In this document: positions 42,097-42,269 of the stretch, piece after piece | Layout: each line of letters opens with the position of its first letter | How positions within the stretch are numbered: the stretch's first letter is position 1 | Source of the DNA: Edaphobacter sp. 12200R-103 | GTDB lineage: Bacteria > Acidobacteriota > Terriglobia > Terriglobales > Acidobacteriaceae | Length of the DNA: 64,000 nt | NCBI RefSeq assembly: GCF_010093025.1 | Contig: NZ_CP048114.1 | Coordinates: 3,162,001 to 3,226,000 of the forward strand | Direction of reading: 5' to 3' | The notes under the pieces: model-generated | What the model was told of the DNA's origin: nothing | What the model saw: only the letters and a program-made list of their open reading frames with translations | Database searches by the model: none | Made by a program: the position numbers and the translations under genes

Positions 42097-42171
42097 ATGA
42101 TCTCTCAATCCAGCCGATTTATCAGCTTTATTTACCGCTACTGGTATCCGGTAGCGGCATCGGCGGAGTAG
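42097..42171 (+). CDS. Candidate aromatic leader peptide (24 aa)
   Basis: A short frame with its own ribosome site (GGAAGG at 42087-42092) encodes 24 residues, including the stretch FISFIYRYWY at positions 8-17: two Phe, three Tyr and one Trp in ten codons. It ends at TAG 42169-42171. The following 100 bases fold into alternative hairpins and a terminator immediately before trpB. Aromatic residues at this density, directly upstream of an operon that makes Trp, Phe and Tyr, match a ribosome-stalling leader peptide. Synthesis of the peptide is inferred. The sequence is too short for homology to be decisive. Confidence 0.65.
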   Translation: MISQSSRFISFIYRYWYPVAASAE

Positions 42172-42269
42172 GGTCTTCTGACGGATTAGCTCGGCGAAGT
42201 AAAGCTGAAGTTCAGAAAAGATTCGAAATCCACACGAGCCGCGACCAAAAAGGTTGCGGCTTTTGTTTT
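42135..42269 (+). promoter_or_regulatory. Putative transcription attenuator of the aromatic operon
   Basis: Segment 1 CCGCTAC (42135-42141, within the leader codons) pairs with segment 2 GTAGCGG (42151-42157). Segment 2 plus the following bases (GCGGC-A-TCG, 42154-42162) can instead pair with CGAGCCGC (42235-42242). That blocks the terminator stem GCCGCGACC (42238-42246), loop AAAAA, GGTTGCGGC (42252-42260), followed by TTTTGTTTTG. The pairings are mutually exclusive. Ribosome pausing on the Tyr codons covering segment 1 would favour the antiterminator and read-through into trpB. Confidence 0.65.

Follow-up and report, generated by a model that had tools for sequence, protein, structure and literature searches.

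A candidate ribosome-mediated attenuator with phenylalanine, tyrosine and tryptophan codons ahead of the trpB operon of Edaphobacter sp. 12200R-103

The aromatic operon and its neighbourhood

The window, by which we mean the whole stretch of 64,000 nucleotides analysed here (positions 3162001-3226000 in a 4.55 Mb genome), carries a run of aromatic amino acid genes that an earlier, sequence-only reading had named as the operon trpB-trpA-aroQ-aroF-tyrA. Pfam searches confirmed these identities, and the order is kept in relatives.

42288..43550, + strand: trpB, tryptophan synthase beta chain (PF00291; homologue in 61/62 genomes of the genus)
43555..44316, + strand: trpA (PF00290)
44474..44734, + strand: aroQ, chorismate mutase type II (PF01817)
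44791..45810, + strand: aroF, DAHP synthase (PF00793 and PF18152)
45814..46683, + strand: tyrA, prephenate dehydrogenase (PF02153 and PF20463)

Gene order was compared across 31 same-genus loci. The 29 loci long enough past trpB, among them L031 and L032, which repeat L116 and L135, all kept trpB-trpA-aroQ-aroF, with tyrA following in 27 of them. A threonine-deaminase-like gene (PALP and ACT domains) lies after tyrA at 46717-47961, as it does in several relatives.

On the other side of the operon, a 488-aa reading frame at 40405-41871 had no Pfam match and lies upstream of the predicted promoter. A large imperfect inverted repeat (41890-41995), in which CATTCTGAGCCGCAAGGCGAAGAATCCCTGTATTT pairs with AAATACAGGGATCCTTCGCGTAGCTCAGGATG, separates that frame from the promoter and looks like an intergenic palindromic element. 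Its short core was tested for enrichment across the window and was not enriched; a similar inverted-repeat element was seen upstream of the leader in one relative, L012.

Conserved leader frame, promoter-like block and stems

The following features were located between the inverted repeat and trpB.

42058..42063, + strand: predicted -35 element TTGCCC, separated from the -10 element by 17 nt (TTGC is commonest at -39..-36)
42081..42086, + strand: predicted -10 element TATGCT (TATnnT in relatives; conserved T, A, T, T)
42093..42096, + strand: CAAG, where the transcript is predicted to start 3-4 nt ahead of the leader ATG, placed by spacing only
42097..42171, + strand: leader peptide frame, MISQSSRFISFIYRYWYPVAASAE and its stop codon, from the sequence and the list of open reading frames
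42110..42115, + strand: 5' arm of an outer helix, partner 42162-42166 (98.3% of cells paired; 1/5 pairs changed on both sides)
42135..42144, + strand: segment 1, CCGCTACTGG, pairing with segment 2 (3/9 counted pairs changed on both sides in the genus)
42148..42157, + strand: segment 2, the arm facing segment 1, CCGGTAGCGG, from pairing and covariation
42154..42167, + strand: segment 2, the arm facing segment 3 (GCGGC-A-TCG, plus GGA:TCC; duplex median -18.8 kcal/mol over 59 leaders)
42176..42181, + strand: TTCTGA, arm of a small helix within the 2:3 loop, partner TCAGAA
42212..42217, + strand: TCAGAA, partner of TTCTGA, from the covariation alignment
42229..42242, + strand: segment 3 (TCC ... 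CGAGCCGC), from duplex energy and co-variation with segment 2
42236..42270, + strand: intrinsic terminator formed by segments 3:4, an 11-bp hairpin with loop AAAAA followed by a U-rich tail, from fold and covariation

The 24-codon aromatic frame proposed by the sequence-only reading was confirmed at 42097-42171, with F8, F11, Y13, Y15, W16 and Y17. A TrpB homologue was located in 61 of the 62 same-genus genomes, and upstream DNA could not be read at two of these loci, L140 (a run of N) and L141 (a contig end). The leader was detected in all 59 readable loci, and in every one the frame is open with aromatic codons: Phe and Trp occur in 59/59 and Tyr in 57/59, being missing from two. In L120 and L137 (2/59) the frame overruns the aligned stop codon. 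The predicted peptides range from the window's RFISFIYRYWYPVAASAE to RFWFTFRYWRTVAASAE and RISFILRYWRTIAASAE.

Aromatic richness alone is weak evidence (six or more aromatics in 24 codons, P about 0.005 for this frame alone), and the case is carried by conservation. That P value is what can be said for a chance leader-like frame ahead of an ordinary terminator, a reading to which we give next to no credence because the leader is conserved, its stems covary and the element recurs at aroK, aroF and aroQ; the comparative data are already contrary to it.

A promoter-like block precedes the frame. Counted from the leader ATG, T, T, G and C at -39..-36 occur in 52, 42, 37 and 38 of the 59 leaders, and T, A, T and T at -16, -15, -14 and -11 in 49, 47, 45 and 52; the spacer between the -35 hexamer (starting at -39) and TATnnT (-16..-11) is 17 nt. 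CAAG at -4..-1 carries 1.47-1.75 bits per position, with single letters in 54-57 of the 59 leaders. A -10-like hexamer ending 8-12 nt before the ATG was found in 67 of 95 family-search leaders, against 13 expected from shuffles.

The frame had also been credited with its own ribosome site, which our comparison does not support, as anti-Shine-Dalgarno pairing before the ATG was like that at random positions. Median pairing was -2.2 kcal/mol in the 59 leaders, -2.4 at random positions (n=400) and -7.9 at trpB starts (n=53), and pairing of -5 kcal/mol or lower was reached by 8%, 21% and 96% of these, respectively, where the trpB values are those of the best candidate in-frame ATG, which favours trpB, and 6/59 loci lacked a scorable trpB ATG. 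The purine run GGAAGG (42087-42092) is unconserved and sits after the predicted -10 box, ahead of the predicted point of transcript start. Because the conserved promoter-like block leaves only about 3-4 nt between the likely start and the ATG, we take the leader mRNA to be probably near-leaderless; with the start so placed, the block and the missing Shine-Dalgarno signal both point towards a leaderless-type leader mRNA.

The three-state layout that had been proposed for this region is backed by conservation, covariation and the stall model. Segments 1 and 2 do pair, as had been suggested for 42135-42141 with 42151-42157, though that helix was drawn too short: it spans 10 bp, 42135-42144 with 42148-42157. 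We also found the alternative stem that joins GCGGC-A-TCG (42154-42162) to CGAGCCGC (42235-42242), extendable by GGA/TCC, and the terminator, with its core at 42238-42260 and a U-rich tail. The 1:2 and 3:4 stems are mutually exclusive with 2:3, a short frame with end-product codons occurs in 59/59 leaders (as predicted peptide), and an intrinsic terminator lies ahead of the first structural gene. The duplexes 1:2, 2:3 and 3:4 have genus median energies of -16.2, -18.8 and -19.9 kcal/mol, and the fold of 42080-42275 beats all 200 dinucleotide shuffles (z -4.3).

Aligning the trpB upstream regions of relatives, the comparison to which the sequence-only reading had pointed, thus returned covarying stems along with the conserved aromatic frame in 59/59. 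In the terminated structure, 97.7% of 1507 cells are paired across the 59 rows and 8/26 pairs changed on both sides. Shuffles reached the observed values in 0/500 cases for paired cells, two-sided changes and covariation score, and in 16/500 for further pair types, while slid controls with partners moved by 1-3 columns were 34-56% paired. In one compensated example, CTACTGG:CCGGTAG becomes CTATTGG:CAATAG and CACCTGG:CAGGTG. Terminator 3:4 has 98.7% of cells paired in eight counted pairs, two of them changed on both sides, and the small helix 97.8% in four counted pairs (CTGA:TCAG), again with two changed on both sides. Antiterminator 2:3 is nearly invariant, with 95.5% of cells paired in the genus, and covariation sought in this stem within the genus (59 leaders) was not found. 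This is expected because segment 2 is tied to two partners, and it is no support either.

When genus and family leaders were pooled (92 rows, 90 of them usable for 1:2), the pairing energies of 1:2, 2:3 and 3:4 all lay below those of 300/300 permutations, and 35/300 permutations were as low for the unrelated 1:3 control, in a test that ignores common descent and uses an alignment (A3) fitted to 1:2 and 3:4 and not to 2:3. Within the trpB, aroK and aroF classes, 0 or 1 of 300 permutations was as low for each stem.

The length and structure of the leader, its conserved small helix and the conservation of stretches from the stop codon to the terminator could also suit a ligand-binding riboswitch or a protein-bound leader (T-box, TRAP-like or other) in which the frame is incidental. 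Rfam gave 0 matches in the whole window at the gathering score, so no amino-acid leader or T-box, and for 42050-42290 at E up to 10 it returned two chance-level matches only, neither of them a T-box or an amino-acid leader. The frame is moreover open with aromatic codons in 59/59 leaders, and its codon set tracks the downstream gene. We therefore regard such a leader as very unlikely.

Modelled stalling and the proposed switch

Stalling was modelled in 59 leaders with a ribosome at every codon, 8, 10 or 12 nt masked beyond the A-site codon and the RNA folded up to segment 3. Positions are counted from the hinge Trp codon, and the resulting stall window is as follows.

42127..42144, + strand: stall window of the model, running from codon F11 (TTT) to W16 (TGG), from antiterminator probability by stall codon

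The antiterminator reached a mean probability of 0.95-0.97 for stalls at -5 to -1 before the hinge Trp, and also at -6 with the longest footprint. At the Trp codon itself (position 0) the probability was 0.97, 0.84 or 0.65 by assumed footprint, at +1 and +2 it was 0.49-0.73 (0.53-0.73 for Tyr 17 of the window's leader, past the best stretch), and at +9, which is the stop codon in 50/59 leaders, it was 0.01. Codons of the stall window are F (59/59), x, mixed, R (59), Y (53) and W (59); aromatic codons therefore fill it, and both its ends are invariant.

The sequence-only reading had supposed that a Trp stall may mask segment 2 and that Tyr stalling may be the main signal. Trp does sit at the edge of the stall window (0.97-0.65), and a stall there antiterminates in the model; masking and the primacy of Tyr thus stand only in part, with Trp invariant in 59/59 leaders, the hinge Tyr replaced in 6/59 and no Tyr at all in 2/59. 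At the opposite edge, the -5 Phe codon is TTT in 59/59 by an alignment-based count. Phe codons in all genus leaders number 109 TTT versus 57 TTC, and those in five genes of the window's cluster (trpB, trpA, aroF, tyrA and the threonine-deaminase-like gene) 10 TTT versus 35 TTC. Slower reading of TTT could make it the better sensor.

With the RNA folded only as far as segment 3, a stall leaves segment 2 exposed and a ribosome at the stop codon masks it, which does not hold at equilibrium with the terminator. When the fold included the terminator, 3:4 formed at 0.70-0.84 for in-window stalls versus 0.83-1.00 for other codons. Since 3:4 wins at equilibrium even with in-window stalls, antitermination must be kinetic. 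The off state is unclean in the model, because in the folds as far as segment 3 the antiterminator forms at 0.37 without a ribosome and at 0.54-0.79 for stalls upstream of the stall window, reaching 0.97 at -6 when the longest footprint was assumed.

We propose the following switch, in which the stall positions are modelled and the start site, translation and amino-acid response are inferred. Transcription would begin about 3-4 nt ahead of the leader ATG, and a ribosome would load on the near-leaderless end. A shortage of charged Phe-, Tyr- or Trp-tRNA would stall the ribosome within F11-W16, covering segment 1 and leaving segment 2 free to pair with segment 3 once the latter is made; the terminator would then be blocked and trpB-trpA-aroQ-aroF-tyrA transcribed. 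When all three amino acids are plentiful, the ribosome would reach the stop codon and cover segment 2, and transcription would end at 3:4, about 17 nt short of trpB. With codons for Phe, Tyr and Trp all inside the modelled stall window, the response may be multivalent.

Other copies of the element

A model built from the genus leaders (R1) found the element a second time in this genome (55 bits, E 7e-12), ahead of the shikimate kinase gene aroK and with the leader MVQTLHFGRFSYGYWYPVAAGGASHASLS. Further second matches fetched from the genus lay before aroK in 20/20 cases, and all 20 leaders contain Trp. With a second model, R2, all 50 same-genus genomes listed, this one included, have at least two matches, though a shadow of the terminator on the reverse strand may be counted among them. 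In the own genome a third, weak match (16 bits, E 0.78) was set aside because by eye it looked like the tail of a different reading frame with its terminator. Weak third matches at E 0.01-0.02 were also seen in three related genomes, some 70-75 kb away from the second match (G008:C2:402288, G009:C1:704493 and G014:C2:83955).

Across the family, matches were detected in 102/250 genomes and 33/79 genera, so that over half of the genomes had none under strict filters that lose weak matches. Among 99 family loci, the first downstream gene among the TrpB, TrpA, AroF, TyrA and AroK queries was aroF in 34, aroK in 32, trpB in 25 and none in 8. Five of the last group (L226, L232, L238, L245 and L247) start with a chorismate-mutase-like gene, by eye except for L232, which was assigned by Pfam; L252, L253 and L255, which have neither leader nor aromatic gene, were rejected as true family leaders. 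Some aroF loci begin with aroQ or aroQ-pheA (L205 and L218 by Pfam).

The codons of these leaders differ by downstream gene. Trp is present in 24/24 trpB, 32/32 aroK and 22/26 direct aroF leaders and in 1/13 of the aroQ-first leaders, which all contain Phe and Tyr (13/13); these counts omit L222 (leader masked), L252, L253 and L255, the leaders are related by descent, and several aroQ-first loci were classed by distance to aroF, the others by Pfam or reading.

These counts bear on whether the element is a single-amino-acid attenuator, for Trp or for Tyr, whose other aromatic codons ride on the RNA stem or on chance. The hinge Trp is invariant, as that reading would have it, and part of the conservation of the R, Y and W codons is possibly structural because they lie inside stem 1:2. 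The invariant -5 Phe codon, however, lies outside that stem, at the edge of the stall window opposite the Trp, and 12/13 aroQ-first family leaders lack Trp while keeping Phe and Tyr in all 13. In L132 and L135, moreover, the stem has changed with compensation and Tyr is lost, with Phe and Trp kept. We thus consider sensing of one amino acid unlikely.

Beyond the family, R2 matched 184/298 genomes of the order, 183 of them in the same family; G301, from another family of the order, has a match at E 4e-4. A phylum search gave matches in 67/347 genomes, those outside the family mostly weak. We fetched 20 stretches from this search, 19 of them from other families, and five had aromatic-rich leaders before aroQ, pheA or aroF; the other 15 were set aside as plain terminators or coding DNA by appearance. 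Leaders in L286-L289 contain Phe and Tyr only, and L295 adds one Trp. These five loci (L286, L287, L288, L289 and L295), from other Acidobacteriota families, have leaders such as FYFYFYF and YFYFYYFY and are Phe/Tyr-rich relatives.

Among 80 named trpB loci, some of which (including L036) are too short upstream to tell, R2 was strong only in L031 and L032, the repeats of genus loci. Its weak hits were L072, from Opitutae, at 26.7 bits (E 2e-4) and L067 at 17.9 bits (E 0.05), and it found nothing in L033-L035, which are labelled Acidobacteria or Acidobacteriaceae, and R1, run on 38 of the 80, had no hit at E up to 1. In the own genome, the upstream stretches read by eye had no aromatic-rich leader for trpE (L281, G000:C1 about 2604431) or for the prephenate dehydratase gene. 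With trpE lacking such a leader, entry into the Trp branch seems to lie outside this attenuator's control.

By its sequence matches, then, the attenuator appears to be one member of a regulon also covering aroK, aroF and aroQ. We read the region, with a probability of roughly 0.87, as a ribosome-mediated attenuator that would sense Phe, Tyr and Trp through a kinetic stall switch and would share this regulon; frame, stems, covariation, promoter-like block and gene association come from sequence. As an observation, the sequence-only reading holds for frame, stems, terminator and conservation and fails for the ribosome site; its interpretation as attenuation with Phe, Tyr and Trp codons stands, short of the ribosome site and part of the Trp/Tyr stall claim, and the regulon is added here.

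A broader proposal, which we hold at slightly better than even odds, is an Acidobacteriota regulon of near-leaderless multivalent aromatic attenuators, in which a six-codon stall window is reused before trpBA-aroQ-aroF-tyrA, aroK, aroF and aroQ(-pheA) with its codon mix tuned to the branch. If true, the ribosome would compute 'any aromatic short' at the shared steps and, for the chorismate mutase branch, 'Phe or Tyr short'. A reusable three-aromatic leader over several operons, codon-matched to the branch, would show how ribosome stalling can govern a whole pathway, and it would offer a regulatory handle in Acidobacteriota, a soil phylum with little genetics.

Attenuation is commonly taught as one leader per amino acid, or per family such as the branched-chain amino acids. 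The E. coli trpL layout consists of a short regulatory-codon frame, 1:2, 2:3 and 3:4 stems and a terminator before the first gene, and the Edaphobacter leader is like it in its regulatory-codon frame, three stems and terminator ahead of the first gene. It is unlike trpL in that Phe, Tyr and Trp codons are mixed here, whereas trpL has tandem Trp codons; the Edaphobacter leader also controls trpBA together with aroQ-aroF-tyrA in our reading, has no Rfam leader match and probably no Shine-Dalgarno site. The E. coli pheA and pheST leaders are likewise Phe-rich frames for aromatic genes, theirs serving Phe control. The multivalent attenuator of the ilvGEDA operon, reportedly described by Lawther and Hatfield in 1980, is said to carry codons for several end products in one leader. 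Both would thus be multi-end-product leaders, ilvGEDA being branched-chain and the Edaphobacter leader aromatic.

That a stall frees the antiterminator is the principle of attenuation (PMC7298713). In Sinorhizobium meliloti, the trpL (rnTrpL) transcript starts with the leader ATG, giving a leaderless leader mRNA (PMC7298713); that leader has Trp codons and precedes trpE(G), whereas the Edaphobacter start is predicted about 3-4 nt upstream of the ATG. By analogy, one may speculate that the terminated Edaphobacter leader acts as a small RNA, like rnTrpL. Attenuators have been predicted for trpB operons of Corynebacterium diphtheriae and for tyrA-bearing supraoperons of Enterococcus and Streptococcus (PMC1262725, PMC1173090). 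These are alike in preceding trpB-type operons or Phe and Tyr gene clusters and belong to other phyla, and the portions of those two papers available to us do not mention a leader with codons of all three aromatics. The trpB motif (SRC-39-1) of Firmicutes and Fusobacteria is a riboswitch candidate found mostly before a transporter gene, for which the authors left an attenuator possible (PMC11109978); it too is a leader RNA occasionally ahead of trpB and with a terminator, in other phyla. Among the papers listed by searches of the open-licence literature, none describes a three-aromatic leader or attenuators in Acidobacteriaceae. Set against that literature, the three-aromatic leader run as a regulon may be new, within a mechanism class that is classical.
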